In this document: in pieces, positions 1 to 23,546 of the stretch
Position numbering within the stretch: the first letter of the stretch is position 1
Layout of the letters: every line of letters starts with the position of its first letter
Source: Burkholderia pseudomultivorans
GTDB lineage: Bacteria; Pseudomonadota; Gammaproteobacteria; Burkholderiales; Burkholderiaceae
DNA: 64,000 bases
Direction of reading: 5' to 3'
Assembly (NCBI RefSeq): GCF_001718415.1
Contig: NZ_CP013379.1
Coordinates: forward strand, 47,153 to 111,152
Made by a program: the position numbers and the translations under genes
Notes under the pieces: generated by a model
Told to the model about the DNA's origin: nothing
Databases searched by the model: none
The model's input: the letters and a program-made list of their open reading frames with translations, nothing else

Positions 1-479
1 CGACGGATACGTACGTCCTGCTTGGCACACGCGACCGGCTCAACGTGGTTCTGCTGGAAGCGCACGTCAATCGTCGTGCGTTGCTGGAGTTATGGCTCTC
101 GCCCGGCATGCACGTTCCGATCGCCTATTCGATGATGGGATGGGCCCTGCTGGCGGCGCTTCCTGAGGACGAGCGGCATTATCTACTGACCCAGGTCGAA
201 CTCCACGCCGGCGATGCCTGGCCGGCCATCATTCGCCGCCGAATGTGTGAAAAGATCGTGCAGGTACACGAATTCGGTTTCTGCATGCTGGATGGCGAGT
301 GGGAGCCGGAGCTAACGTGTGTTGCAGCCCCCGTCACGCCGCCGGGTCACCCGCCTCTCGTGCAGTGCTGCGACGGACGCACGGCGCGCGTTGCACAGGC
401 CAGTGTCGAGCGCGAACTCGGATCGAGGCTTGTCGCGTGTGCGCATGTCCTGCAGGAGCGACTGCCGACACGTCGCTGA
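1..479 (+). CDS. IclR-family regulator, C-terminal part (5' end outside window)
   Basis: The reading frame is open to the left edge, so only the effector-binding domain of an IclR-type transcription regulator is present. The visible part reads like the IclR C-terminal domain: a strand rich in L and V, an 'LSPGMHVPIAY...GWALLAALPE' segment matching the usual 'G.r.pl..ta.GrAlLA.lp' stretch, then 'VQVHEFGFCMLDGEWEPELTCVAAPV'. In the family this domain senses a small aromatic or carbon-source effector and controls a neighbouring catabolic operon. The DNA-binding half lies outside the window, so intactness cannot be judged. A second, broken IclR gene follows 29 bases later. Confidence 0.75.
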   Translation, partial: TDTYVLLGTRDRLNVVLLEAHVNRRALLELWLSPGMHVPIAYSMMGWALLAALPEDERHYLLTQVELHAGDAWPAIIRRRMCEKIVQVHEFGFCMLDGEWEPELTCVAAPVTPPGHPPLVQCCDGRTARVAQASVERELGSRLVACAHVLQERLPTRR

Positions 480-8458: not shown

Positions 8459-9346
8459 TCACACTAAGGTTGCTGAATCCATCGAGCGCCGGAACTCGCG
8501 AGGCGAGCGGTATTTCAGCGCGCTATGGGGATGCTTCTCGTTGTAATGCTCGAACGCGATGGCCAAGTTGCGTGCGGCAGTCGCTGCGTCCGGCTTCGGC
8601 ATGAAGGCGACGTAGTCGCGTTTCATCGTCTTCACGAAGCTCTCTGCCATCCCATTACTTTGTGGGCTGCACACCGGTGTGGTCAATGGCTTCAGGCCGA
8701 TGGCCACTGCGAACCGGCGCGTGTCGTCGGCCGTGTAGCCCGAACCGTTGTCGCTCAGCCACTCGATTTCGGACGGGGTATGCAGTTCGTTGCCAAACCG
8801 ATTTTCCACTGCAGCCAGCATCACGTCGCGCACGATGTCGCCGCTGTGACCTGCTGTCGTGGCTGCCCAGCTCATCGCCTCTCGGTCGCAGCAATCCAGC
8901 GCAAACGTCACCCGCAGCGGCTCGCCGTTGTCGCAGCGGAACTCGAAGCCGTCCGAGCACCATCGCTGATTGCTGCGCGCGACGGCCACCTTGCCATCGT
9001 GCCGACGTTGCGGCCGAGGCGGGGCTGGACGCCGTTGCATCAGCAGACCGTGAGTGCGCATGATGCGATAGATGCGCTTCGCATTGAACGGCACCTGTCC
9101 GGCAGCAATGCGTTCATTGCGCAGCGAGCCCCACACCCGGCGATAGCCATAGCTGGGCAAATCGCCGACGACTCGGCGGATTTCCTCGACCACGCTCGCA
9201 TCGTCCGTCTGCCGCGATTGACGGCCATCGCGCCACGTCGCCGGACGCGACAGTCGTGCCGATACGTTCGAGCGCGACACGCCGAGAACTTCACAAACCA
9301 GTTTCACTGGTCGTCCTCCGGCAGCGAGGGCGAGTGCGCTATCCAT
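8459..9346 (-). CDS. IS3-family transposase OrfB (DDE integrase domain)
   Basis: 295 aa with an HTH_21-like region ('[18 protein letters not shown]...[15 protein letters not shown]') and an rve/DDE core: first D in '[15 protein letters not shown]', second D in '[15 protein letters not shown]', E in '[15 protein letters not shown]'. Residue spacing is normal for IS3 elements. The ATG overlaps a run of seven A at 9346-9352 (minus strand) inside orfA. That is the usual site for the programmed -1 frameshift that makes the OrfAB fusion transposase. It appears intact. Confidence 0.88.
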
Positions 9347-9669
9347 TTTTTTGCCCGGCCGTACTCGACTGCTTCGCGGAGAATCTCGTTCTCCATGGTC
9401 TTCTTGCCGAGCATCCGTTGCAGCTCGCGAATCTGCTTGAGCGCGTCGGCCAGCTCTGAGGCCGGAACCACTTCCTCGCCAGCCTTGACCGCTGACAGGC
9501 TCCCATCCTGGTACAGCTTGCGCCAGTGGAACAGCTGGTTCGGGTTCACGCCGTGCTGCCGCGCGACCATCGAAACCGACTTCCCTGGTTCGAAACTCTC
9601 GCGAACCATCGCCAGCTTTTGCTCCGCCGTCCAGCGCCGCCGGCGCTCCGGGCCCGTCAACACTTCCAT
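9304..9669 (-). CDS. IS3-family transposase OrfA (HTH protein)
   Basis: 121 aa from the ATG at 9669, which begins '[18 protein letters not shown]', as expected for IS2-group OrfA. A GTG ten codons upstream is an alternative. The helix-turn-helix '[23 protein letters not shown]' is followed by a leucine-zipper-like coiled coil ('[28 protein letters not shown]'). OrfA binds the ends and regulates transposition; its 3' end overlaps orfB by 43 bases. Confidence 0.85.
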
Positions 9670-9822
9670 CACTTCCTGCCTGGTGTTAGTCAAAAACACA
9701 GTCTTATGCCTACCCGTTATTGTAAGTGGGTGACTGTGTCCGGCGTTTCAGGGGGCTGCTCCAGAGCCTTTCCAGGACTAAGGACATCCAACCGGAAGAA
9801 TGCACGGGAGTCAAGGGCACCC

Positions 9823-10281
9823 CATCAAACCGACGTGATCGATTTGCCACGCGAGCCGCTTTCGCCGCGGCCCGGATACACCACCACGCTCTAGGGGCTG
9901 CGCTGCGTCCCGCAGCTTGCCCCGGCGCTTGCCACCCCATGTCCACCTGAGCCGCTACGCGCCTCAGATAGCGCGCTCGCCGCGCGCGGCGTTCCGCCTC
10001 ATCGACATGCCGCTGCTCCCGACGTCCCTGTCCCCTGAGCTCGTCGTCCTATTTCCGCGACCGTAGCGCCGGCCTTTGCCGCGTCAAGGCGCGCGGGGCC
10101 GTGTCGTGCGCTGCGCTCCCTCCCGCCCCACCCCGCGCGTGATTCCTTGACCCGGCGCCGGCCGGCGCTCGTCCGTTCGCGGGACGACGAACTAAGGGGA
10201 CCGGCGGCAGCTGCGAAGCGCAGCACGCCGACTCGACAGAACCCAATACGTCGGGACTCTGAATCTTGGGTCCCGGTCAGC
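9823..10281 (+). repeat. Long direct repeat DR-459, copy 1
   Basis: A 459-base non-coding block that recurs at 13105-13563 with only a handful of substitutions. It is GC-rich with many short inverted repeats (for example CCGGCGCCGGCCGG near 10152). It ends 38 bases before the start of the 196-aa gene, as copy 2 ends 21 bases before the DUF3560 gene. The constant placement upstream of plus-strand genes suggests a shared promoter or leader and not a random duplication. Confidence 0.85.
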
Positions 10282-10319
10282 TAACACCGCGTTACGCGGT
10301 ACGTCATAGAGGAAAGAGC

Positions 10320-10910
10320 ATGTACAAGCTGGTTATCGAGTGTGGGCCTGCGCCGGCCGACGAACAGTGTGTTCAGCTGGGAAATGAGAACTATAAAGAG
10401 CGCAGCCGCGCGGAATGCCGCGCCTACATCAAAGTGATCACACGGGCTCTGGGCGAACCGCCTGAGGGGGCACGCTTCATCGTCCGGCGATGTACGCATG
10501 GTTTCGGCGAATACTTCGAGGTCGCCGTAAAGGTCGAAAGTGAGGAAGGATCGCCCGAATGCGAGACGGCCGTTCGTTATGCATTCCGCTGCGAAGCGGA
10601 GGCTCCGACTCGGTGGGACGACGAGGCGCGTCGTGAACTAGCCGCTGCGGGCTTTCCGGTGTCGGCTACCGAAGAACGCGACGAGCTGGCGAAGGCAGGC
10701 ACCGTGCGGCAAAAGATCAACGCCGCGCTCTGGAAGGACCTCGATGAATTGATCATGCAGTGCGATGCAGATTCACCCGTTGGCGAGTCCTGCGTCCGCA
10801 TGCTCAACCTATTCGAGCGGATCCTCGCGTGCGAAGAACTCGAGCCGGATCTTCGGGAAAGCTTTGCGCGAGAAGCCGTACGCCAGTGCAACGTCTGGTA
10901 CTTCGGTTGA
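10320..10910 (+). CDS. Unknown 196-aa protein, partner of the DndC-like gene
   Basis: The ATG at 10320 follows a good ribosome binding site (GAGGA, 8 bases upstream). The protein is acidic and cysteine-rich, with a predicted alpha/beta N-terminal half ('MYKLVIECG', 'GARFIVRRCTHGFGEYFEVAVKVE') and a helical C-terminal half. I do not recognise the family. Its stop is five bases before the ATG of the PP-loop gene, so the two are probably co-translated and may work together. The 459-bp repeat lies just upstream and is the likely control region. Confidence 0.6.
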   Translation: MYKLVIECGPAPADEQCVQLGNENYKERSRAECRAYIKVITRALGEPPEGARFIVRRCTHGFGEYFEVAVKVESEEGSPECETAVRYAFRCEAEAPTRWDDEARRELAAAGFPVSATEERDELAKAGTVRQKINAALWKDLDELIMQCDADSPVGESCVRMLNLFERILACEELEPDLRESFAREAVRQCNVWYFG

Positions 10911-10915
10911 GCGCG

Positions 10916-12715
10916 ATGCAAACGATCGAAATGTTCCCGCTGGCGGAAGTGCGCCCGAGCCTCGATCAGCGCGTCGGACTCGCGCTCCGGGCTCTGTTGG
11001 CGCTCTTCGCCGCGAATCGAATGGTGATCTGCCAATTCAGCGCGGGCAAGGATAGCGGGGTCGTGACGAGTCTCGGGCTCGAGGCTGCTCGCCAATATGC
11101 GGTCGCCGGCGGGCGGCCGCTTGTCTGCGTCATCACGGCCGACACCTTGGTCGAATCGCCGGAGATGGTCGAGCATGCACAGCGCGAGCTCGACAAGATG
11201 GTGACGTTTGGTCAGGAGCACAGTTTCGAAGTTCGCATCCTGGTTGTCGCGCCGTCGCTCGCGACGTCGTGGCAGCTCGCAGTGCTGACCGGCCGTGCCT
11301 TGCCCAGCTATGCCGGCACGAACTCGGATTGCTCGGTGTCGTTAAAAATTGAGCCGAGCCGAGTCGGTCGCAACCAGCTGTATCGCGAGGCACGAAAGGC
11401 CGGCTATGCAGAGCCAGTCGTCCTGCTCGGCACGCGCTTCGACGAAAGCGAGCGGCGCAAAGCGAAGATGACCGCGCGGGGCGATCGCGCGGATACGCCG
11501 GTCCGCAATAGCGACGGCGAGCTGACGCTCTGCCCGATCGCCGACTGGTCGACCGAGGACGTCTGGGAGTTTATCGGCGAAGTTTCGTCCGGGCTGCGGC
11601 GCAGCTACACGGATTTCGAAGAAACGAAGCGGATCTACGCGCATGCTGGTAACAGCAGCTGCGCGATCGTGTCGGACCTCACGTTCGAGGAGGCGTCCGC
11701 CGGCAAGCGCGTGCGCCGCGGACATTGCGATGCACGCACCGGCTGCTGGACCTGCCAACAAGCCGATGATCGGTCGCTCGCGGAGATGATCCGCTTCGAC
11801 GAAGATCGGTATGCCTATGCGCGTGGCCTGCAGCAGCTGAATCGCTTCATCCGCGCGATCCGCTACGACTGGTCACGTCGCAACTGGGTGGGTCGCACGA
11901 TTCGGGAAGGGTACATCTGCCTCGAGCCCGATACGTTCGGAGCCGCGACCGTGCGCGAGCTAGTCCGGTACATGCTGACAATCGATCGAGACGAGAGAAT
12001 CCGTGCGAAGCGCGCCGGAACGCACCCGAAGTTCCAGACGTTGCCGCTGCCGATGATGATCGCCGTTGACGCGATGCAGTCCCTGCAGGGGCTCGCGGCG
12101 CCCTTCGCGATCTGGGCAGATTACCGCGACATCTGTGAGCGTGGCGTGAGCTACTCGGTGCCGGAAATCGCGCCGGCCGCGCCGGCACCGTTGCCCGAGC
12201 CGCTGTTCCTGAAGGTTGGTACCGAATGGGACGATACGGCGGATCAATGGACAGGGTTTCGAGATCCGCTGTTCGAGGCATTGACCGAGCGCTCGCCCTG
12301 CGCGCCGACAGTCATGGATCTCGGCAACGGCAAGAGCACATGGGAGGTTCGAACTGGCGCACGCTTCGACGTCGATGTCGAGTCGGCCGAGATGATCCTG
12401 GAGTTCGAGGCTGATCGGCTGGCCGAAATGCACGATCGCGGCTTTCATCCCGGCGGAATCACGGCCGGTTATCGGTGGTATCTGAGTTACGGGGCGCTGA
12501 CGCTCTCCCACAAGCAGCAGCTGAAGCACGATGAGGTGGCGCGACGCACCGACTTCAAGGACCGGCTCGGCCTAAATCTCGGGCACGACGTCGCGCAGCT
12601 TGTCCAGCAAGGGGTGCGTTTTGGTGACCTGCCTGACAACGCGAGGTATGCCTGGGCGCACAAGGCAACGACGGCCGGCGCGCAGACCACCTTCGAGTTT
12701 GCCCTCGATGCATGA
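10916..12715 (+). CDS. DndC-like phosphoadenosine-phosphosulfate reductase-family protein
   Basis: 599 aa from the ATG at 10916. The PP-loop SAGKDS at residues 42-47 is the ATP-pyrophosphatase motif of PAPS reductases and DndC. Cysteines in 'TNSDCSVSLKIEP' and 'HCDARTGCWTCQQADDRS' resemble the Fe-S ligands of DndC, where a GCWTC motif is typical. DndC/SspD proteins activate DNA for phosphorothioate modification, and PAPS-reductase-like genes also occur as BREX accessory genes. No dndA, B, D, E or ssp partner is visible nearby, so this is an orphan with an extra C-terminal region (about residues 400-599) of unknown role. Whether it modifies DNA, counteracts a host system or does something else is open. 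Confidence 0.75.
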   Translation: MQTIEMFPLAEVRPSLDQRVGLALRALLALFAANRMVICQFSAGKDSGVVTSLGLEAARQYAVAGGRPLVCVITADTLVESPEMVEHAQRELDKMVTFGQEHSFEVRILVVAPSLATSWQLAVLTGRALPSYAGTNSDCSVSLKIEPSRVGRNQLYREARKAGYAEPVVLLGTRFDESERRKAKMTARGDRADTPVRNSDGELTLCPIADWSTEDVWEFIGEVSSGLRRSYTDFEETKRIYAHAGNSSCAIVSDLTFEEASAGKRVRRGHCDARTGCWTCQQADDRSLAEMIRFDEDRYAYARGLQQLNRFIRAIRYDWSRRNWVGRTIREGYICLEPDTFGAATVRELVRYMLTIDRDERIRAKRAGTHPKFQTLPLPMMIAVDAMQSLQGLAAPFAIWADYRDICERGVSYSVPEIAPAAPAPLPEPLFLKVGTEWDDTADQWTGFRDPLFEALTERSPCAPTVMDLGNGKSTWEVRTGARFDVDVESAEMILEFEADRLAEMHDRGFHPGGITAGYRWYLSYGALTLSHKQQLKHDEVARRTDFKDRLGLNLGHDVAQLVQQGVRFGDLPDNARYAWAHKATTAGAQTTFEFALDA

Positions 12716-12876
12716 TGGAGGCCCGGGCTACGTGGCTGGTTGGCGGAGGGACCGGTCGCCCTGGCGCTGGCCGAAGCCGCCAAGCCCTGGCGTGCGCGGC
12801 ATCGACGCGGCCGGGAGAAATCGAACGGCTGTCGGGGGCCGGATTTTCGCTGAAGGTTCTGCGTCGAAGCATAAAT

Positions 12877-12910
12877 AAAGATGGGACCGCATGTTCGCGG
12901 TCCCATCTTT
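12877..12910 (+). terminator. Strong intrinsic terminator or attenuator after the DndC-like gene
   Basis: A perfect 14-bp stem (AAAGATGGGACCGC / GCGGTCCCATCTTT) with a six-base loop. T residues end the stem and A residues begin it, so it could act in both directions. It separates the DndC-like operon from a small ORF whose ribosome binding site begins right after the stem. Confidence 0.75.
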
Positions 12911-12923
12911 ACAGGAGACGACA

Positions 12924-13034
12924 ATGATCCATCCAGTGATCTACATCGACCACGACAACGCGGAGTTCTTCAGCAACGAACACGCGCTCCTGGTCTGGTG
13001 GACGCCACGGCGCATGTGCGTGGTGCTGCGGTAA
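12924..13034 (+). CDS. Possible 36-aa small protein
   Basis: ATG at 12924 with AGGAGA eight bases upstream; the product starts 'MIHPVIYIDHDNAEFFSNE' and ends 'MCVVLR'. It begins immediately downstream of the terminator hairpin and ends 70 bases before copy 2 of the long repeat. The good Shine-Dalgarno sequence supports translation; the function is unknown. Confidence 0.35.
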   Translation: MIHPVIYIDHDNAEFFSNEHALLVWWTPRRMCVVLR

Positions 13035-13104
13035 GTGAAGGGGCTAAAGCCCCTGTTCTTACGGTCCCGAGCAACCGGATCGTGCCGGGCCGCGACGGCT
13101 CGCG

Positions 13105-13563
13105 CATCAAACCGACATGATCGATTTGCCACGCGAGCCGCTCTTTCCGCGGCCCGGATACACCACCACGCTCTAGGAGCTGCGCTGCGTCCCGCAGCTT
13201 GCCCCGGCGCTTGCCACCCCATGTCCACCTGAGTCGCTACGCGCCTCAGATAGCGCGCTCGCCGCGCGCGGCGTTCCGCCTCATCGACATGCCGCTGCTC
13301 CCGACGTCCCTGTCCCCTGAGCTCGTCGTCCTATTTCCGCGACCGTAGCGCCGGCCTTTGCCGCGTCAAGGCGCGCGGGGCCGTGTCGTGCGCTGCGCTC
13401 CCTCCCGCCCCACCCCGCGCGTGATTCCTTGACCCGGCGCCGGCCGGCGCTCGTCCGTTCGCGGGACGACGAACTAAGGGGACCGGCGGCAGCTGCGAAG
13501 CGCAGCACGCCGACTCGACAGAACCCAATACGTCGGGACTCCGAATCTTGGGTCCCGGTCAGC
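13105..13563 (+). repeat. Long direct repeat DR-459, copy 2
   Basis: Nearly identical to 9823-10281; the few differences I see are scattered single or double substitutions (for example cgacgtgatc against cgacatgatc). It ends 21 bases before the ATG of the DUF3560 gene. Recombination between the two copies would delete or invert nothing else than the 3.3-kb DndC-like unit, so the unit could excise as a circle. Confidence 0.85.
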
Positions 13564-13584
13564 AAAAACCAACCAGGAGCATGT

Positions 13585-14928
13585 ATGCAACACCTCACGG
13601 CAACCTATTCCCCCGACGATAATAAGCTGCGTCTGTACAGCACCGCGCGCCTCGACGAGGCGCTGTATCGACGTGTTCACGATGCGGGCTTCCGGTTCGC
13701 GCCGAAACAGGATCTGTTCGTCGCGCCGAGCTGGACGCCCGCCCGCGAGGATCTTCTCCTCGAGCTGTGCGGCGAGATCGATGACGAGGACACGTCGCTC
13801 GTCGAACGCGCGGAAGAGCGTGCAGACCGGTTCGACGGATATAGCGAACGGCGTGCGGCCGACGCGAAAGCCGCACATGCCGTGTTCACCTCGATCACCG
13901 AACGTATCCCGTTAGGTCAGCCGATCCTGGTCGGTCACCACAGCGAAGCCCGCGCACGACGCGATGTCGAGCGTATCGATAACGCCATGCGCAAAGCGGT
14001 CTCGATGTGGGACACGCACGAATATTGGGAGCGTCGCGCGGCCGGTGCACTCCGGCACGCGAAATACAAGGAGCGTGCGGACGTCCGCCATCGTCGGATC
14101 AAGCGCATCGAGGCCGATCGCCGAAAATGCGTGCGCAGTCTCGAGCTCCTGAAGGCTGCAGCCGACGCGCTGCGATCGCCAACGCTGACCGTGGAGCATG
14201 CCCTCACGGTGGCTTCGGCGTCGGGTCTGCACGGTCTTTGGAGCGCACTGAACGCGTGTCCCGATAGCTTCCGCGCGACCTGTGACCAGTATCTCGAACG
14301 GGAAGGCCGCAATCGTGCACATTGGGAACGCTGGATCGCGCATTACGATTGCCGCCTGAACTACGAGCGCGCAATGCTCGCGGAGCAAGGCGGCATCAAG
14401 GCCGATGCGTTCGACATCGTGCCAGGTGGCCAAGTGCTCGTCCGCGGCGAGTGGCTGGTCGTGAAACGCGTGAATCGTTCAGCTGGTGCGATCTGCAGCG
14501 TCACGACACAGGCGCGCTTTGTACCGGTCCGCGGTATCGAGGAAATCGAAGACTACCGCGCGCCGTCTGTCGAGGTGGCGGCCAAGGTCAAGGCTGCAAG
14601 CAAGCTGCCGCCCCTTTGCAACTACCCTGGTACAGGCTTTCGCGAGATGACCAAGGCCGAATGGGACGCCACCCATCGCGACTATAAGGGGTCGCGCGAG
14701 CTCGGCGCCGGCGCCGTTCGACCGGGCGGGTATCGGCCGGACATCGAGGGCGCGGCAGACGTCTCCAGCTCGGCCGGCCGGCACCGCGTGCGTTCGGTGG
14801 TCCACCGCGGTGTACTGGTGGCGGTCTACCTGACAGACGTTAAGCGGGTCGACCCACCGGCAATCCCGCCCTCTGGAAGCGAAGTTGAGTTTGCCGCACC
14901 GGATCTCACGGCAGCCCAACCCTCCTGA
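13585..14928 (+). CDS. DUF3560 domain protein
   Basis: 447 aa from the ATG at 13585 (AGGAG upstream). Residues about 75-200 match what I know of DUF3560: 'YSERRAADAKAAHAVF', 'IPLGQPILVGHHSEARARRDVERIDNAMRKAV', then a long basic helix-rich segment with 'HRRIKRIEADRRKCVRSLELL'. DUF3560 proteins are found on conjugative plasmids and ICEs, often near antirestriction genes; the biochemical role is not known to me. The upstream 459-bp repeat gives it the same control region as the DndC-like operon, and a clear terminator follows its stop. Confidence 0.75.
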   Translation: MQHLTATYSPDDNKLRLYSTARLDEALYRRVHDAGFRFAPKQDLFVAPSWTPAREDLLLELCGEIDDEDTSLVERAEERADRFDGYSERRAADAKAAHAVFTSITERIPLGQPILVGHHSEARARRDVERIDNAMRKAVSMWDTHEYWERRAAGALRHAKYKERADVRHRRIKRIEADRRKCVRSLELLKAAADALRSPTLTVEHALTVASASGLHGLWSALNACPDSFRATCDQYLEREGRNRAHWERWIAHYDCRLNYERAMLAEQGGIKADAFDIVPGGQVLVRGEWLVVKRVNRSAGAICSVTTQARFVPVRGIEEIEDYRAPSVEVAAKVKAASKLPPLCNYPGTGFREMTKAEWDATHRDYKGSRELGAGAVRPGGYRPDIEGAADVSSSAGRHRVRSVVHRGVLVAVYLTDVKRVDPPAIPPSGSEVEFAAPDLTAAQPS

Positions 14929-14967: not shown

Positions 14968-15408
14968 CTTGGGCATCGGCGATGACCACAGCCGGTGGCA
15001 CATTCGCTCCCACGCGCGTGCCGCGCACTCCAGATCGGCCGGCCCATAAACCGCGGGCCGCCCTCATGACCAACTGCACACTGAACCGCCCTCTTGAGGT
15101 CTCGGCCAGTGGATCTAACCCGGCCGGAAAGAGGTAAAGCGCCCCGGGTTCTAAAAGGATGTCGCTACCCGTCGCAAACGATCGCCGCGCTGGTTTCGCC
15201 GGCCAGAGCGGGCCCGCACACTATGGCGCGCGCCCACTCCTTCAAGGGCTTTCGCGGCATAAACGGTGCCCTCCTACGGACTGCCTCCCCGTTATTCCAC
15301 GGTCCCTTGACCGGCAACCCCTGCGCGGCGCTCGCAAGCGCCGGGTAGCGACATTTCGGAGCCGCATACGGCAACGCGCTATCCGCCCCCCAACTGTGGA
15401 GCGCATAC
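14968..15408 (+). other. Non-coding leader upstream of the methyltransferase
   Basis: About 440 bases without a credible gene. The stretch is GC-rich with short repeats such as GGGTAGCGACATTT near 15343 and a related GTCGCTACCC near 15163, which form a long-range inverted repeat. By position it plays the role that the 459-bp repeats play for the upstream genes, but the sequence differs. Confidence 0.45.
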
Positions 15409-16053
15409 ATGAGCTTTCTCTATAACGGCGATTGCCTGGAAGTGTTGCCGTCCATTCCGGACGGCGTGGTCGACTTCGTCCTGACCGATCCGCCCTATCT
15501 CGTCAACTATCAGGATCGCACCGGGCGCTCGATCGCGAACGATGTCAAATCCGACTGGCTGGCGCCGGCATTCGCGGAGGTGTACCGCGTCATGAAGTCG
15601 AACACGCTTTGCGTGAGCTTCTACGGCTGGACGAAGACGGACCTCTTTTTCGACGCGTGGAAGCGCGCCGGCCTGCGGGTCGTCGGCCACATCGTTTTCG
15701 CGAAGTCCTACGCGTCGAAATCGCGCTTCGTCGCGTACCGCCACGAATCCGCGTACGTGCTCGCGAAGGGCCAGCCGGCTGTGCCGGCTACGCCGCTGCC
15801 CGACGTGATGCGCTGGGAGTATTCCGGGAATCGGCACCATCCCACGCAAAAACCGGTTCCGTGCCTCAAGCGCCTCATTGAAAGCTACACGGCCCCTGGC
15901 GACGTCGTTCTTGATCCATTCGCTGGGTCGGGCTCGACATGCGTTGCCGCGCGCGAGGTCGATCGCTACTACATCGGCATCGAGCTTGACCCGACCTATT
16001 ACGCCGCAGCTTGTGAACGGCTCGAAATCGACCGATTCCGCGTCGCAGCCTGA
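15409..16053 (+). CDS. DNA (adenine-N6 or cytosine-N4) methyltransferase, orphan
   Basis: 214 aa. The catalytic motif DPPY is at residues 27-30. The AdoMet-binding motif 'DPFAGSGST' near residue 168 comes after it, so the order is that of beta-class amino-methyltransferases. A 'HPTQKP' motif precedes the AdoMet motif, as usual. The protein is short, with a small target-recognition part, and no restriction endonuclease is next to it. On conjugative elements such enzymes usually protect the incoming DNA or alter gene expression. The recognition sequence cannot be deduced. Confidence 0.88.
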   Translation: MSFLYNGDCLEVLPSIPDGVVDFVLTDPPYLVNYQDRTGRSIANDVKSDWLAPAFAEVYRVMKSNTLCVSFYGWTKTDLFFDAWKRAGLRVVGHIVFAKSYASKSRFVAYRHESAYVLAKGQPAVPATPLPDVMRWEYSGNRHHPTQKPVPCLKRLIESYTAPGDVVLDPFAGSGSTCVAAREVDRYYIGIELDPTYYAAACERLEIDRFRVAA

Positions 16054-17304: not shown

Positions 17305-17724
17305 TTAGAACGGAATTTCTGCCGAAATCATCTCGTCGCGGGCCACCTCCCCACCGCCAAGAATCGCCCGAGCCTCATCATGGAGGCACGCGAAGCCATG
17401 CAGGGCGGTAAACAGTTCCGACTCCCCCATTTCCTCCAGCGCGGCAAGCGTGACCAACACGCCAAACGCATCGGCGCTCATTCGATGACCGCCGACTTCG
17501 ATTTGCTCGTCATTCAGCAGCAGCGGAGCGACATAGAAGCCCTTGGACTCCAGACCATAAAAGCGCCAACCAGACGTCGTGTAGGCCGGAAAAAGGATTT
17601 TCGCCCAACGCACGACAGCCAATTGCGCACATGCCGCGCGACGCTTCAGAAAATGCGGGAAGAAGGCCGCGCGCTGATGATCGGGCCACTCGTAACGCTT
17701 CACTTCCAGTTCAACTTGATTCAC
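17305..17724 (-). CDS. KlcA/ArdB-like antirestriction protein
   Basis: 139 aa from a GTG at 17724, chosen because CGGAGAAAAACC stands just before it and the same leader stands before the divergent ParB-like gene. Family hallmarks are 'FFPHFLKRRAACAQLAVVRWAKILFPAYTTSGWRFYGLESKGFYVAP' and 'MSADAFGVLVTLAALEEM...LHGFACLHDEA'. These match the 'W.FY.LsNGGFYmAP' and 'MSADAaGivvtL' blocks of KlcA/ArdB. ArdB-type proteins block type I restriction without mimicking DNA. Length is normal for the family (about 140). It fits an establishment role during conjugation. Confidence 0.7.
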   Translation of the reverse strand: MNQVELEVKRYEWPDHQRAAFFPHFLKRRAACAQLAVVRWAKILFPAYTTSGWRFYGLESKGFYVAPLLLNDEQIEVGGHRMSADAFGVLVTLAALEEMGESELFTALHGFACLHDEARAILGGGEVARDEMISAEIPF

Positions 17725-17773
17725 GGTTTTTCTCCGGTTATCGCCCACGGCGGAATCGCTAGGGCATGTTTGT

Positions 17774-17793
17774 ATTATAGGACGTTTCGTCCT
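17774..17793 (-). promoter_or_regulatory. Promoter with embedded palindromic operator for the ArdB-like gene
   Basis: Read on the minus strand, a perfect -10 (TATAAT, 17779-17774) is directly preceded by AGGACG-AAA-CGTCCT (17793-17779), which fills the spacer. A -35-like TTGATT lies 18 bases upstream. A repressor bound here would block RNA polymerase. Confidence 0.65.
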
Positions 17794-17855
17794 TATCAAT
17801 CAATAATTTTATATACCCGATTAAATTCTAGGGGAATTGTTTTAATTGCACCGAT

Positions 17856-17877
17856 ATAGGACGATTCGTCCTATAAT
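17856..17877 (+). promoter_or_regulatory. Promoter with embedded palindromic operator for the ParB-like gene
   Basis: A perfect 19-bp palindrome (ATAGGACGA-T-TCGTCCTAT, 17856-17874) runs into a perfect -10 TATAAT (17872-17877). It is the mirror image of the ArdB-like promoter 79 bases away. No good -35 is visible at normal spacing. Confidence 0.65.
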
Positions 17878-17925
17878 ACACCTATGCCTCGGCGGTGTGC
17901 TGAAGGCGATAACCGGAGAAAAACC

Positions 17926-19917
17926 GTGAACCATGTAGCAGATGCAATCCTCGCCAACCCCGTCCCGTACACCCTCGGGAAGATCAACTATCTACCGCTC
18001 GGCCAGTTGTGCGTCTCGCCCCACAACGTGCGGAAAAAGCCCGCCAAGATCGTTCCGGCCCTTGCGGCCGACATCAGGGTGAACGGCGTGTTGCAAAACC
18101 TCGTCGGCCATCCGATCGGTGAAGATGAGCAGCGGAACGGCCTGCGGCCGTTCGGAATCTGTGCGGGCCAGGGCCGCTTGGGTGGGTTGGAAATCCTGAA
18201 AGCCGAGGGCGAGTGGTCGGACACGGATCTTGTGCCCGTGCTGATCGTCTCCGCCGGCGAAGCATTGGCAATCTCGCTTGCGGAGAACGTGCAGCGCGAG
18301 GGGATGCACATCGCCGACCAGTGCGTGGCCTTCCGCGCACTCGTCGCGGAAGGCCGATCCGTTGCGGACATTGCTGCACGGTTTTCTGTGTCAGACGCGG
18401 CTGTCCGTCGCGCATTAAAGCTGGCGAACATTTCTCCGAAGCTGCTTGAAGTGTTTCGTGATGACGGGATGGATTACGAGCAGGCGTGCGCGCTCGCACT
18501 GTCCGACGACACCGAACAGCAAGAGCGGATTTGGTTCGAGTCGATTCAGGAATGGCAGCGCAGTCCGCGCGAGATCCGGGCAGTGATCACCAAAGCCGAA
18601 GTGAACGCGGCCACTAATGCGCTTGCACGATTCATCGGCCTCGACGCCTACGAGGCAGCAGGCGGGCACGTGCGGCGCGACCTGTTCACCGGCGACGGAA
18701 ACGGCGGATATGTAGCAGACCTCGAACTGCTAAACCGCCTAGCTGTGGAAAAACTGACGGCGGCCGCCGAGGAAGTGCGCGGCGAAGGTTGGGCGTGGGT
18801 GGATGCAGCAGTGCGCCGCGAGGCGCTCTCGGCGATGCGTGTTCGGCAGCTGGACCCCGAACGCCGCGAACTGACGAAGAAGGAGAAAGCGGAGCATCGC
18901 AAGCTCGAACAGGCGCTCGATAGTGCGGAAGCTGCCCTCGATGCACACTACGACGCGGAAGATTCGGACGCTGACGGCGACGCACTCCACGAAGCCGTCG
19001 GCGACGCGCAAGCAGCGCTGGACGCGTTCGAGGAACGTTGCGAGGTATGGACCGACGAACAAAAGGCCGTTGCGGGCGCGCAGGTCTGGGTCAATGCAAA
19101 TGGCGAACTTGAAATCAGGCGCGGCGTTGTCAAGCCGCAAGAAGCCGCCACCGCTGTTGCTGGTGGTCAGCACGCCGAGCAGGCCGAGCGGGCGACGAAG
19201 GCCCGGCCGGTCCACAGCGAAACGCTTTGCGTTCGGCTGACCGCTCATCGCACTGCTGCCGTGCAGGCGGAGCTTGCGAAGCGCCCTGACGTGGCGATGG
19301 CCTACCTTTTGTACACGATGATTCCGGACGTGTTCGAGGAACAGTTTGATGACCATTGGCGCGAATACCACGCGCTCGGAGCAACGTTCCGTCCGAGTCT
19401 GGACCAACTGTCCCGCGTCGCGGATGACATGGCCGACAGTGCGGCGTGGCGGATCATCGACACCGAGCGCGCGAAATGGGCGGCCATGATGCCGAACGAA
19501 CTGCGCCACTTGCTGCCTTGGCTGCTGGAAGCGGGAGACGACGTTCTGTCGGGCCTGTTTGCCTTCTGCGTTGCGGCGATGGTCAACGGCATCGCGCGGG
19601 AGAACAAACCCCACGCTGTGAACACGCTGGCCGACGTGCTCGACGTGGACATGGTGCGCTACTGGAAGCCGACTCAGGCGAGTTACCTCAATCACGTATC
19701 GAAGCAGCGCATCGTTGATGTGATGGCGCAGGCAATTTCGCCGTCGGCCGCAGTACCCCTGGGTTCGATGAAGAAGGGGGACGCCGCCGCAGCGGCCGAA
19801 CTACAACTGGTCGAATCGGGATGGCTTCCGGATGTACTGATGAATCGGGAATCGACTTTCCCGATCGAATACCCCACGCGCGAGGTTGAGGCAGTAGACG
19901 CAACGGACCGTCATTAA
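17926..19917 (+). CDS. Large ParB/RepB/Spo0J-family protein of the plasmid leading-region type
   Basis: 663 aa from a GTG at 17926 (CGGAGAAAAACC upstream; an ATG 14 codons earlier is weaker). The N-terminal ParB/Srx-like domain covers about residues 20-130 ('LCVSPHNVRKKPAKIVPALAADIRVNGVLQNLVGHP', 'ICAGQGRLGGLEIL', 'ISLAENVQREGMH'). An HTH follows ('SVADIAARFSVSDAAVRRALKLANISPKLLEVFRDDGM'), then a long helical C-terminal region with an E/A-rich coiled coil. It is unlinked to ParA, which has its own partner at 59.4 kb. It therefore resembles the YubM-like ParB proteins of conjugative leading regions, not a partition protein. The partner gene is a divergent antirestriction gene. Confidence 0.75.
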   Translation: MNHVADAILANPVPYTLGKINYLPLGQLCVSPHNVRKKPAKIVPALAADIRVNGVLQNLVGHPIGEDEQRNGLRPFGICAGQGRLGGLEILKAEGEWSDTDLVPVLIVSAGEALAISLAENVQREGMHIADQCVAFRALVAEGRSVADIAARFSVSDAAVRRALKLANISPKLLEVFRDDGMDYEQACALALSDDTEQQERIWFESIQEWQRSPREIRAVITKAEVNAATNALARFIGLDAYEAAGGHVRRDLFTGDGNGGYVADLELLNRLAVEKLTAAAEEVRGEGWAWVDAAVRREALSAMRVRQLDPERRELTKKEKAEHRKLEQALDSAEAALDAHYDAEDSDADGDALHEAVGDAQAALDAFEERCEVWTDEQKAVAGAQVWVNANGELEIRRGVVKPQEAATAVAGGQHAEQAERATKARPVHSETLCVRLTAHRTAAVQAELAKRPDVAMAYLLYTMIPDVFEEQFDDHWREYHALGATFRPSLDQLSRVADDMADSAAWRIIDTERAKWAAMMPNELRHLLPWLLEAGDDVLSGLFAFCVAAMVNGIARENKPHAVNTLADVLDVDMVRYWKPTQASYLNHVSKQRIVDVMAQAISPSAAVPLGSMKKGDAAAAAELQLVESGWLPDVLMNRESTFPIEYPTREVEAVDATDRH

Positions 19918-19961: not shown

Positions 19962-19994
19962 GGCCGACGCGGCTTAGGCCGCGTCGGCCTTTTT
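19962..19994. terminator. Strong terminator inside the convergent gene ends
   Basis: GGCCGACGCGGC / GCCGCGTCGGCC stem (12 bp) with a TTAG loop followed by TTTTT, 44 bases after the ParB-like stop. The loop contains the stop codon of the convergent 144-aa gene, whose last residues (ADAA) are encoded in the stem. Confidence 0.85.
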
Positions 19995-20408
19995 CTCGTC
20001 CGCCTCGCTTGGCTTGTCCTGCCCCGCCCCACGCAAAACCCAACCCGCGCGCAATGCCGGGTCGGCGTTGAGGCGGTCAAGCGCTTCGCGCAGCACACCA
20101 GCCAGCAAGTCCCGTTCCAGCGGAAAACCCACCGCTTCCACCACCGCGCCCAACTCCGCGTGCGCCTTTGCACGGGCCTTCTCTTGCTCAACTCGGCGCG
20201 CACGCAGAAGCTTTTCTGTTTCTGCCTTTGCCTCGTCTGCCTTCATGTTGATGCGTTCCATTCGCATCAACTGGTCGAACACCCGCGCGTCAGACTTGTC
20301 GAGTTCTGGGCGCTCCGCCAATTCAACGAGCAGCCTCTGTGCTTCTGTCGGAGTATTTAGCGCCTTGATGAACTGCAACCGAACCGCCAACCATTCGGGA
20401 CGTGACAT
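19974..20408 (-). CDS. Putative oriT-flanking transfer accessory protein (coiled coil)
   Basis: 144 aa; 'MSRPEWLAVRLQFIKALNTPTEAQRLLVELAERPELDKSDARVFDQLMRMERINMKADEAKAETEKLLRARR' is highly charged and helical, followed by a C-terminal domain and a KADAA tail. It is divergent from the relaxase gene across the candidate oriT. In many plasmids that place is taken by small transfer accessory proteins of the TraC/TraD/Mob type. I do not recognise a specific family, so the role is inferred from position. Confidence 0.55.
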   Translation of the reverse strand: MSRPEWLAVRLQFIKALNTPTEAQRLLVELAERPELDKSDARVFDQLMRMERINMKADEAKAETEKLLRARRVEQEKARAKAHAELGAVVEAVGFPLERDLLAGVLREALDRLNADPALRAGWVLRGAGQDKPSEADEKKADAA

Positions 20409-20723
20409 AGGTTCTACCTCACCCTAGAAAATCGGAATCGACTACGCAGCAGCGCCCTTTATAGTTCGAAGTGCTGCCGCCCTGAGTCCAGCCCTCCCAA
20501 GTGGAGGACTGGACCTGATGCAGCGCCGTCGAGATCACCCGCCCCCCGCCGACGCCGACGCCGCGCCATCGAACCGCTCCGTGCCACGATCCGAAAACCC
20601 CTAAAAAGCGGAAGTCTCCAGGGAGCTCGCAAAAACCCGGGTCTATAGAGCAGTACAACGCGCGCTTACGCGTTTCTATGCTAGCATAGAAACACCCCAA
20701 AAACAGCGCTCAACCCGGTTCCC
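20409..20723. other. oriT: Candidate origin of transfer (oriT)
   Basis: A 315-base non-coding region between the relaxase and a divergent accessory gene. It contains GCGCCCTT (20452-20459), which resembles the nic core of MOBQ/RSF1010-type oriTs and is bracketed by GCAGCA (20446-20451) and TGCTGC (20472-20477). It also holds an 11-bp inverted repeat TCCAGCCCTCC / GGAGGACTGGA (20487-20513, one mismatch) and a 22-bp perfect palindrome (20672-20693). Location and relaxase type support oriT; the exact nick and the transfer direction are not shown by the sequence. Confidence 0.55.
20672..20693. promoter_or_regulatory. 22-bp perfect palindrome before the relaxase
   Basis: GTTTCTATGCT followed directly by its complement AGCATAGAAAC, 30 bases upstream of the relaxase start. 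It could be a repressor operator or a relaxosome-protein site. Confidence 0.55.
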
Positions 20724-23546
20724 GTGTCGACCTATCACCTCAGCGTCAAACCTGGCAAAGCTGCCAAGGCAGGCGAGCACGCCAAGTACATCGCGCGCGA
20801 GGATCACTACGCCTATATTTCGCGTGGCGGACGATACGAGGAGCGCGGCGATCTGAAGATGTCCGAGAGCGGAAACATGCCGGCTTGGGCCGAGCACGAT
20901 CCGAGTCTCTTCTGGCAGGCGGCTGATCAGTACGAGCGGATCAACGGTCGTCCGTATCGAGAGATCGAAGTTTCCATTCCGCGCGAACTGAGCGACGAGC
21001 AACGAGTTGAGTTGATTCGAGAGTTTGTCCAGAACACACTCGGCGAGCGTCACGCCTATTCTTGGGCAATTCACAATCCCGCAGCCAGCGATGGTCTCGA
21101 GCAGCCCCACGCCCACATCATGTTTACTGAGCGGGTGAACGACGGAATTTCCCGAGATCCCGAGCAGTTCTTTCGACGCTGGAATCGCGAGAGTCCTGAG
21201 AAAGGTGGGGCTGGCAAGGACCGATATCTGAGCAGCAGGCAGTTTGTGGTCGACGTCCGCGAGGAATGGGCGGTTACCGCGAATCACTTCATGGCTCGAC
21301 ACGGCATTGAGGCACGTATCGACCATCGGAGTTACAAGACGCTCGGTATCGAACTTGAGCCGTCGCTAAAGGTGGGTGTCGCCCGCTACGCCGGCGAGCG
21401 CGGCGTAATGGAGAGCGTGCTCGCCGAGAATCGTGCGCGCGCTCAACGCAACGGCCAACGTCTTCTCATCAATCCATCGATCGGCGTGCACGCATTGACG
21501 GCAACCAAGTCGATTTTCTCGCGCCGCGACGTTGAGCAATTCGTCTTCCGGAACACCGACGGAGAAGAGCAATTCCGTCAGGTTTATGCCCGGATGATGA
21601 ATTCGAAAGAGTTGATTGCGTTGAGCGTTCCCGGCAAAGAAGGAGACTGGTTTACTTCGGGCGAGCTTCGAGAGCTCGAGGATCGTCTCGTTGATCGCGC
21701 CGAACGCCTTTCCAATGTCCCGATGCAATCCGGGAGCATTGCGCGTCACGACGATCTGCGGATCTCGCGAAATTTCAACGCCGGCCAGGACGCGGCGTTT
21801 TCGCTTCTCGTATCAGATCGGCAGTTTGCCGTCGTCAACGGCGCGGCCGGAACGGGGAAGAGCTACGTCCTCAAGGCCGCACGAGAAGCGCTGGAATCTG
21901 ACGGCTTCCGCGTCCTTGGCGCGGCTCTCCAAGGGAAAACCGCCGACGACATGGAGCGCGATGCTGGCATTCAAAGTCGGACGCTGCACAGCCTGCTCGG
22001 CTCTCTGGATCGCGGGAGCTTAAAACTCGACGAGCGAACGGTTGTCTTCGTCGATGAGGCCGGGATGGTCGGTTCTCGGCAAATGGAAAAGCTGCTCGGT
22101 CATATTGAAAGAGGCAATGCGCGCATTCGAATGGTCGGTGACGCATATCAGCTGCACGCAGTCGATGCCGGCGACGCGTTCCGCGCCGTCAGCAAGAAAG
22201 CCGAATCTGTCGGTGCACTGTCGAGCCTGACCGAGATCAAGCGCCAGAAGGAAGAGTGGCAACGGCAAGCATCGGAGGCGCTGTCTCGGCATGAAATCCC
22301 GGCCGCAGTGTCTGCGTATGCGGAACGTGGATCGGTCCAACTGTTCGAATCGCTCGCTGCTGCACGCGACATGCTCGTCGCACAATTTATGGCCGACCGG
22401 GACGCCCACCGAGGCGAATCGCAGATCTTGTTGACGCACACGAATGCTCAACGTGATGGGCTCAACGCCGCGATCCGTTCGACCCTACGCATGCGCGGCG
22501 AACTCGGCGGCGATCACGCGGTTCAGTTGGTCGAGCGCGTCGACGGCAGCGAACAGACCGACAACCAGCACTCGCGTACCATGATGCTTGCGGCAGGCGA
22601 GCGGATTATGTTCCTCCGCAACGACTACGATATCGACGTAAAGAACGGCTCGCTGGGAACCATCGAACGGATCGAAGCTCGAGAGCAAAAGTCGCAACCG
22701 GGGTCGATTCTGCACGTGCGCCTCGATGATGGTCGCAGCATTGCCATCGACTCCGCGACGTATGGCGAGATCGACTACGGGTACGCGCTAACGATCCACA
22801 AGAGCCAGGGCATGACCGTCGATCGTGCGTATGTCCTGGCAACCAAGAGTCTGCATGCGGAACTCGCCTACGTTGCAATGACGCGGCACAAGACTTCGCT
22901 GATTCTCGCGTCCGGTAAAGATGAGTTCGCCGATGCCACTGCACTGAGTCGCGCGTTGTCACGCGTGGATGAAAAGTCGTTCAGCGCCTACCACGGCGTT
23001 CGACCCGAGACCGAGCTCGGCGCGGAGCGAGGCTACCGACATACTATTGCCCTTCGACGGACCGCAGCGGCCACATCGGCTCCGGTTCGCCGACATCCGG
23101 TGACGCTCGATCGCGCGGTGGACCAGTACGTCGACGCGCTGGTTAAGCGCCAGCGCGCTCACGCAGAGAATCGCCCGCTGCAGGCGAAGGAACGCGCTCA
23201 ATTGAAGCGATCCGGTGCTGCTCTCGAGCACGTTGATCCGGCTATCCGCGGCCGTCTCGCCTACCTCGCAAGCCGGGACGATCGCGCCTGGAGGGCTTTG
23301 GTCGCATTGAGCGGGCAAGCTCGAGCGAAAGCGATTGTCGAGAACATGCGGCATTCGAGTGGCGGCCGCGCAGAGATAAATCGCGAGCAATTCACCAAGA
23401 AGCCATTCGCCGGCATGACCGCCGCCGAACGGGCTGCGGCCCGCGCGGAATATATGCAACGGCAACGGAAGGCGGCCGGTTTGGATGAGAGCGAGCGAGA
23501 TCAGTCCAATGAAAATCGGCGGGGTGGACGAGGCGTGCTCGATTAA
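20724..23546 (+). CDS. traA: Conjugative relaxase-helicase, MobA/MobL (MOBQ, Ti TraA-like)
   Basis: 940 aa from a GTG at 20724. The N-terminal relaxase domain (about residues 1-220) starts 'STYHLSVKPGKAAKAGEHAKYIARE', with a candidate catalytic Tyr near residue 22. The metal-binding histidine motif 'QPHAHIMF' lies near residue 128. A RecD2/AAA_30-like helicase follows, with Walker A 'GAAGTGKS' near residue 370, Walker B 'VVFVDEAGMVG' near 440 and the motif 'TIHKSQGMTVDRAYV'. The C-terminus ends in a basic tail with 'RAEYMQRQRKAAGL', shared with the 589-aa protein of the coupling operon. It nicks oriT, stays bound to the 5' end and unwinds the strand for transfer. Confidence 0.88.
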   Translation: MSTYHLSVKPGKAAKAGEHAKYIAREDHYAYISRGGRYEERGDLKMSESGNMPAWAEHDPSLFWQAADQYERINGRPYREIEVSIPRELSDEQRVELIREFVQNTLGERHAYSWAIHNPAASDGLEQPHAHIMFTERVNDGISRDPEQFFRRWNRESPEKGGAGKDRYLSSRQFVVDVREEWAVTANHFMARHGIEARIDHRSYKTLGIELEPSLKVGVARYAGERGVMESVLAENRARAQRNGQRLLINPSIGVHALTATKSIFSRRDVEQFVFRNTDGEEQFRQVYARMMNSKELIALSVPGKEGDWFTSGELRELEDRLVDRAERLSNVPMQSGSIARHDDLRISRNFNAGQDAAFSLLVSDRQFAVVNGAAGTGKSYVLKAAREALESDGFRVLGAALQGKTADDMERDAGIQSRTLHSLLGSLDRGSLKLDERTVVFVDEAGMVGSRQMEKLLGHIERGNARIRMVGDAYQLHAVDAGDAFRAVSKKAESVGALSSLTEIKRQKEEWQRQASEALSRHEIPAAVSAYAERGSVQLFESLAAARDMLVAQFMADRDAHRGESQILLTHTNAQRDGLNAAIRSTLRMRGELGGDHAVQLVERVDGSEQTDNQHSRTMMLAAGERIMFLRNDYDIDVKNGSLGTIERIEAREQKSQPGSILHVRLDDGRSIAIDSATYGEIDYGYALTIHKSQGMTVDRAYVLATKSLHAELAYVAMTRHKTSLILASGKDEFADATALSRALSRVDEKSFSAYHGVRPETELGAERGYRHTIALRRTAAATSAPVRRHPVTLDRAVDQYVDALVKRQRAHAENRPLQAKERAQLKRSGAALEHVDPAIRGRLAYLASRDDRAWRALVALSGQARAKAIVENMRHSSGGRAEINREQFTKKPFAGMTAAERAAARAEYMQRQRKAAGLDESERDQSNENRRGGRGVLD

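Follow-up and report, generated by a model that had tools for sequence, protein, structure and literature searches.

Repeated giant hairpins as probable single-strand promoters in a Burkholderia plasmid

Two nearly identical 459-bp repeats lie within a 64,000-nucleotide stretch of plasmid DNA from Burkholderia pseudomultivorans (contig NZ_CP013379.1, positions 47,153 to 111,152; hereafter the window, numbered from its first base), each shortly ahead of a plus-strand gene, and the locus raises the question of what such a repeat does for the gene behind it. Single-stranded promoters have been shown for the F plasmid and studied in ColIb-P9-like plasmids, and the initial annotation of this DNA proposed that the repeats are promoters of this Frpo-like kind, with the minus strand as template. 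That proposal is supported by gene position, strand preference, promoter-like boxes and the prediction of an RSF1010-like origin of transfer (oriT). Judging from the sequence, we consider it probable (roughly 0.8) that each repeat is a single-strand promoter for its downstream gene. This is the best reading because of the layout of the repeats, their strand bias and, above all, boxes at fixed spacing that occur in the folded strand alone.

The two copies align over 459 positions without gaps and with seven mismatches (98.5% identity), and a repeat search recovers the same pair over 300 nt, in line with the near-identity first noted. Their left edge is sharp; on the right, similarity extends about 7 nt past the coordinate listed in Table 1. 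The end of copy 1 is separated by 38 bases from the ATG at 10320, and that of copy 2 by 21 bases from the ATG at 13585, as annotated. Each repeat consists of about 208 upstream bases, a core (10031-10200 in copy 1) and a leader running from 10201 to the start codon. The repeats had been described as full of short inverted repeats. These are real, but the description understated them, as most of the core forms one giant imperfect hairpin of about 170 nt.

Folded as single-stranded DNA, the minus strand reaches -95.7 kcal/mol over 278 nt (z -8.06, with 0 of 200 shuffles as stable), against -88.4 (z -5.87) for the plus strand. This stability, together with similar DNA in 238 PLSDB records (391 places at E 1e-5 in a distant blastn search), argues that the hairpin did not arise by chance; 216 of these 238 records are typed conjugative. 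Covariation was assessed in 38 aligned copies, which represent 38 of 53 distinct hairpins after omission of near-duplicates, one deletion form and five long-loop forms. The MAFFT alignment (A1) was not fitted to a structure, but was itself the source of the predicted structure. Standard pairs occupy 95.4% of the cells, both sides change in 14 of the 38 pairs, and the covariation score is 0.268 versus at most 0.064 for slid partners, a value matched by none of 500 shuffles.

To follow the family further, we assembled 124 elements (111 distinct), of which 42 and a single one in plasmid pBCJ2315 were found by similarity and the other 81 through a pattern of the apical region. The departures from pairing favor the minus strand: in a model alignment of the 81 elements (A2, 76 distinct rows), which was fitted to the structure and hence leans toward it, 153 cells are G.T and 14 are A.C on that strand. 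DNA energies agree: for 109 of 109 distinct elements (those of the 111 with at least 150 nt and no N) and for 16 of 16 thinned elements, the minus strand, predicted to be the transferred (T) strand, gives a more stable fold than its complement. Folding the minus strand as single-stranded DNA, as the initial annotation suggested, thus yields a favored hairpin, and one that contains -35- and -10-like boxes. Pair counts from a third alignment (A3, MAFFT, 75 rows comprising the window and 74 of the 81 pattern elements; G.T 147, A.C 81) were dropped, as helix 2 was mis-registered by one column relative to the window row.

Both boxes reside in the 3' arm of the minus-strand hairpin, separated by 16 nt. 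Within the T strand, 123 of the 124 elements have the string TTGNNN-16 nt-TANNNT in the 3' half, and in the remaining one (L064), cut by a contig end, the same box string can be read by eye. The -35 hexamer is mostly TTGACG (98) or TTGATG (12) and the -10 hexamer TACAGT (53), TACGGT (30) or TACGAT (21), with 53 distinct 16-nt spacers between them. Compensatory changes are most frequent in the apical stem and in the part of the stem that separates the boxes: across the 38 aligned copies, the spacer pairs covary, the TTG of the -35 box and the first T, the A and the last T of the -10 box are invariant, and the 5' arm facing the -10 box differs between copies in both length and sequence. When sequences are folded singly, the first five bases of the -35 box pair with the 5' arm in 96% of cases, and the second base of the -10 box is unpaired in 63%. 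A DNA search finds two copies in the whole genome, both on the contig that carries the window (C3); the covariance model detects one more, decayed relative, on contig C1 (2038602-2038770, L169), which has kept the boxes and their spacing and lost the base of the stem.

No consensus-like promoter faces the gene in the duplex: TTGNNN-15..19-TANNNT is found in the arm of none of the 124 elements, and a scan with TTGANN-15..19-TANNNT from mid-hairpin to 110 nt past the base, which covered 123 of them, is likewise negative. These scans bear on a conventional alternative, in which the repeats are duplex control regions like the IncN CUP, with a promoter and repressor sites, and the hairpin serves as operator or cruciform. 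The layout led us to consider the IncN CUP first, because in pKM101/R46 and IncN2 plasmids, too, several long repeats (429-457 nt as matched in R46) each precede a leading-region operon with anti-restriction genes. CUP elements are described with putative ArdK-binding sites and promoters (PMC5371602), and in the R46 CUP a TTGACT-17-GATAAT promoter can be read by eye toward the gene, a duplex arrangement that differs from the one here. A promoter departing from consensus, as in GC-rich hosts, would also suit this alternative. Against it, the gene-directed box pair of the CUP kind is absent from all 123 scanned elements, and a duplex operator leaves the one-strand preference in wobble pairs and folding energy unexplained; we regard it as improbable. 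Membership of the CUP family was rejected, as neither nhmmer on R46 up to E 10 nor the covariance model on L034 up to E 5 gave a sequence match.

The single-strand promoter reading also accounts for where the elements lie. The start codon follows the hairpin base by 119 nt in copy 1 and 102 nt in copy 2, and in 36 of 42 elements an annotated same-strand coding sequence (CDS) begins 85-129 nt downstream, as read from annotation tables or, for the window, from its own genes; the copies thus sit before genes rather than away from them. The other six comprise two that face an insertion sequence, one at a record end and three whose next CDS is 311-344 nt away. We used annotation because open reading frames (ORFs) of at least 150 aa give a weak contrast in GC-rich DNA (28/41 and 55/59 on the sense side, 10/41 and 38/59 on the antisense side). 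The 116 first ORFs obtained from 123 elements, which were picked by length and some of which are probably not true genes, cluster into 63 DUF932, 9 ParB-like, 6 DUF3560, 6 relatives of the 196-aa protein and 4 methyltransferase-like members, and in a Paraburkholderia plasmid (L030) one copy is followed by ArdC as the second annotated gene.

A conserved leader of about 100 nt after the hairpin, with strongly conserved blocks among 110 distinct leaders, could instead point to a plus-strand transcript that acts as a structured RNA leader or terminator. We consider this very unlikely: the leader has little covarying structure and no clear consensus fold, the wobble pairs of the hairpin favor the minus strand, and an Rfam search gave no match within the repeats and none at gathering score (one weak sub-threshold hit, at 12870-12942, lies outside them). 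Alternatively, the hairpin could act solely as a single-strand initiation site of the ssi/sso type that primes the second strand, its position before genes being incidental. A giant hairpin on the predicted entering strand suits such a role, and Frpo transcripts have been reported to serve as primers as well (PMC7736820). Yet up to 14 copies occur per locus, most of them ahead of an operon of their own with almost constant spacing, a placement that priming does not require, and the boxes are a fixed 16 nt apart, so that an exclusive role in priming seems improbable. By analogy with Frpo, it is plausible that a promoter transcript doubles as primer for second-strand synthesis.

For a single-strand promoter the direction of transfer matters. 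Our oriT candidate adjoins a TraA-type relaxase gene and contains a perfect inverted repeat followed by GCG-TAAGCGCG. The 17-mer at this site has three mismatches to the RSF1010-type AGAAACCGGTAAGTGCG (0.16 expected per window); the octamer TAAGCGCG itself differs from TAAGTGCG by one change. The block is identical in two relatives. An IncQ1 record (L180) has the order MobA (a 722-aa ORF), inverted repeat, TAAGTGCG, mobC, and the window has relaxase, inverted repeat, TAAGCGCG and minus-strand ORFs, one of which (19974-20408) is named TraD in relatives. The order relaxase, inverted repeat, TAAGYGCG, small divergent gene is thus that of RSF1010-type plasmids, and, as in a MOBQ-type layout, the inverted repeat lies on the relaxase side with a mobC-like gene on the other. 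In a first attempt with known oriT strings, only AAGGGCG was recovered. In RSF1010-type oriTs, the nick follows TAAGTGCG. By this similarity, the minus strand is predicted to be transferred first, leftward, with 9.8-20.6 kb leading and the relaxase gene last. Other loci have a comparable polarity: in pOLGA2, a Pandoraea plasmid and pBCJ2315, the element genes run toward genes for the type IV coupling protein and MobF, and in two integrative and conjugative elements (ICEs; L035 and L036), which we take to be Tn4371-like from their gene order, they run toward a relaxase gene and a signal peptidase gene, presumably traF. Experiments on a Tn4371-family ICE placed its oriT between traF and traI (PMC11448139).

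We propose the following course of events. The minus strand would enter the recipient from the oriT at about 20.66 kb, and segments 10200-10031 and 13482-13313 would fold on entry into hairpins of about 170 nt. The 3' arm of each hairpin would provide the non-template strand, with TTGACG, 16 nt and TACGGT, and the 5' arm the template. Initiating within the stem, RNA polymerase would run off the stem base into the single-stranded template, and the mRNA would pass through the leader of about 100-130 nt into the gene. Genes that may protect incoming DNA could thereby be read at once during entry. Upon second-strand synthesis, the arms would pair with their complements, the boxes would face in the direction opposite to the gene, and no sense promoter would be left.

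Among known elements, the family is close in kind to Frpo (ssiD) of the F plasmid and to ssi2/ssi3 of ColIb-P9; the comparison covered F. The Frpo hairpins of F, like the family described here, are repeated before leading-region genes; the Frpo region repeats are 89% identical, and Frpo1 and Frpo2 have been reported as 92% identical (PMC9849209). As controls, the two F elements also fold better on the T strand (-89.1 versus -81.6 and -109.9 versus -101.2), lack TTGNNN-15..19-TANNNT on the duplex sense strand, and precede DUF932 and ParB-like cargo. They differ in architecture: F has a long-range stem of roughly 300-420 nt whose outer pair lies 15-46 nt from the gene, whereas the present family has a hairpin of about 170 nt that is set 100-130 nt from the gene and followed by a conserved leader. 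Searched up to E 5, the F leading region gave no covariance-model match. Samuel et al. (2024) described leading-region anti-defence islands with Frpo-like promoters, the same concept with the same kinds of genes, and the main text of that paper has no word beginning Burkholderia, IncN, pKM101 or CUP (PMC11541004). Our comparisons support the view that the family resembles Frpo in mechanism, as far as sequence can tell, and is neither Frpo nor CUP by sequence; searches of open-access papers showed no description of this hairpin family.

Several observations weigh against the single-strand promoter reading. The apical pattern pre-selected CAAGG and hence the TTG of the -35 box in 81 elements, although neither the -10 box nor the spacing was pre-selected. 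The elements are related, so their counts are not independent, and among structures restricted to Watson-Crick pairs the strand signal is weaker (G.T 15 versus A.C 4 cells, 11 versus 3 columns). The box pattern was not found in F Frpo1 and Frpo2; it is therefore no general detector but particular to this hairpin family. A consensus promoter scan of 9700-14000 found none where 0.9 would be expected by chance, and so says little by itself. In duplex form, the boxes amount to a leftward promoter. For 25 of 27 copies in two Paraburkholderia plasmids (L030 and L031), the gene upstream is co-directional, so that such a promoter would run antisense there; in the ICE loci L035 and L036, a divergent upstream gene could use it. 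Concerning transfer, a 17-mer as good as the oriT candidate, with its three mismatches, occurs in 14 of 100 shuffled windows, and MOB-suite classes the two nearest relatives as non-mobilizable. An ArdB-type antirestriction gene (PF03230, 17305-17799) lies on the minus strand, opposite most leading-region genes, and the published rule has leading anti-defence genes all on the T-strand (PMC11541004). Finally, pBCJ2315 carries an element (E 2.9e-13 with the covariance model) ahead of a DUF932-LPD29-...-methyltransferase run; its annotated DUF932 start is about 310 nt from the hairpin, and a sequence of a different hairpin family, family B, precedes the methyltransferase gene there (as also in record NZ_CP053303).

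Table 1. Coordinates of the repeats and associated features in the window.
Feature	Position	Strand	Basis
459-bp repeat, copy 1	9823..10281	.	Ungapped alignment and repeat search
459-bp repeat, copy 2	13105..13563	.	Ungapped alignment and repeat search
Core hairpin, copy 1; proposed single-stranded DNA promoter when the minus strand is single-stranded	10031..10200	-	Fold, covariation, strand energies
Core hairpin, copy 2	13313..13482	-	Covariance model, box scan
-35-like box TTGACG, 3' arm of minus strand	10082..10087 (copy 1); 13364-13369 (copy 2)	-	Box scan
-10-like box TACGGT, 16 nt after -35	10060..10065 (copy 1); 13342-13347 (copy 2)	-	Box scan
Leader, copy 1, hairpin base to start codon; conserved blocks GAACTNAGG, TCNGAATCTNGG, CCGGT	10201..10319	+	Distinct-leader alignment
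Same leader, copy 2	13483..13584	+	Distinct-leader alignment
196-aa protein, first gene after copy 1	10320..10910	+	ORF and clustering
DndC-like / PAPS-reductase-domain protein, 599 aa	10916..12715	+	Profile match
DUF3560 protein, first gene after copy 2	13585..14928	+	Profile match
Family B giant hairpin, different sequence family, directly before methyltransferase gene	15159..15354	-	Fold and similarity search
DNA methyltransferase, 143/205 residues identical (70%) to presumed M.BceJIII of pBCJ2315	15409..16053	+	Protein comparison
oriT candidate: inverted repeat GTTTCTATGCT/AGCATAGAAAC, then GCG and TAAGCGCG, RSF1010-type; T-strand 5' end predicted just left	20661..20693	-	Motif comparison
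MobA/MobL and helicase relaxase, TraA_Ti 575.5 bits (cut-off 590.45)	20724..23546	+	Profile match

Members of the family occur in plasmids of Burkholderiaceae, in Tn4371-like ICEs and in further genomes, most of them Beta- and Gammaproteobacterial. Blastn matches occur in 20 of 150 genomes of the bacterial family and covariance-model matches in 6 of 398 genomes of the phylum, the source genome being included in both counts; one of the six (G410) is weak (40.8 bits, partial, without boxes). The apical-region pattern is found in at least 118 stretches of GTDB genomes, whose hosts are by record title mostly Beta- and Gammaproteobacteria among the 80 loci taken; 72 of these contain an element (81 in total), and eight have no covariance-model match. 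All 39 copies in the six multi-copy loci are co-oriented within their locus: 14 (L030) and 13 (L031) in the two Paraburkholderia plasmids, five in the part covered of a Burkholderia multivorans plasmid (L032), three (L039), two (L033) and two in the window.

If the single-strand promoter reading holds, single-stranded promoters would extend to Burkholderiaceae plasmids, Pseudomonas and Tn4371-like ICEs. The alignment of 124 elements would be deep enough to define such a promoter by covariation, and the family could predict which uncharacterised genes function during the first minutes of entry and mark leading regions where the oriT is not known. A bolder proposal, which we advance tentatively and hold to be somewhat doubtful, is that a promoter family unrelated to Frpo, spread through Beta- and Gammaproteobacterial plasmids and Tn4371-like ICEs, turns entire leading regions into a pre-duplex regulon. 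The 13-14 copies in each of the two Paraburkholderia plasmids would then drive some 40 or more genes (including ArdC, DUF3560, ParB-like proteins and methyltransferases) from the incoming strand alone; once the duplex forms, the boxes would flip to face the upstream operon as antisense, and strand state would switch one sequence both on and off.

The downstream genes are as initially annotated, namely a 196-aa protein and a DndC-like protein after copy 1 and a DUF3560 protein after copy 2. The DndC-like protein scores 99.8 bits, below the NCBIfam DndC cut-off of 290.4. The competing idea that the repeats are recombination sites through which this 3.3-kb DndC unit excises as a circle found no support. 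Direct repeats of 98.5% identity could recombine, and the two copies within the plasmid are more alike than are orthologous copies in a sibling (93.5 and 93.9%), which fits recombination or conversion between copies. However, neither scanned gene of the unit matches a recombinase, two relatives retain both repeat-gene units, and copies elsewhere precede many different genes, making excision extremely unlikely. In a relative, the 100-nt flank of copy 1 is conserved at 48% and that of copy 2 at 90%. IS2/IS3-like ORFs lie left of copy 1 (8459-9733), one of which matches the IS2 repressor TnpA below cut-off. The DUF3560 protein has 447 aa in the window and 657 aa in B. vietnamiensis and B. contaminans relatives.

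The methyltransferase encoded downstream of the DUF3560 gene was compared with the only annotated DNA methyltransferase of pBCJ2315, which is presumed to be M.BceJIII from the host and plasmid given in the paper on that enzyme. M.BceJIII, which acts on single strands, has been reported to be silent in the host it came from, and its relative M.EcoGIX sits behind an Frpo (PMC7736820). A single-strand promoter would offer a possible explanation for this silence; given the distant DUF932 start and the family B sequence before the pBCJ2315 gene, the silence is not creditable to the present element alone.

Family B-like DNA occurs in 71 PLSDB records. Oriented with the genes, it also precedes DUF932 in a Xanthomonas plasmid, and in a Pseudomonas plasmid it is found upstream of DNA-binding and VbhA-antitoxin genes. 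An extreme hairpin with the family B apical sequence (L172, 19441-19630; z about -17 versus 20 plain shuffles) lies in the pBCJ2315 leading region. We make no promoter claim for family B because, of ten sequences, those of the window and L173 alone have TTG-16-TANNNT. A long AT-rich inverted repeat with TATAAT in its arms, present in five other plasmid records, occupies 17714-17936; lying between divergent ArdB-like (minus) and ParB-like (plus) genes, it is probably an ordinary divergent control region.

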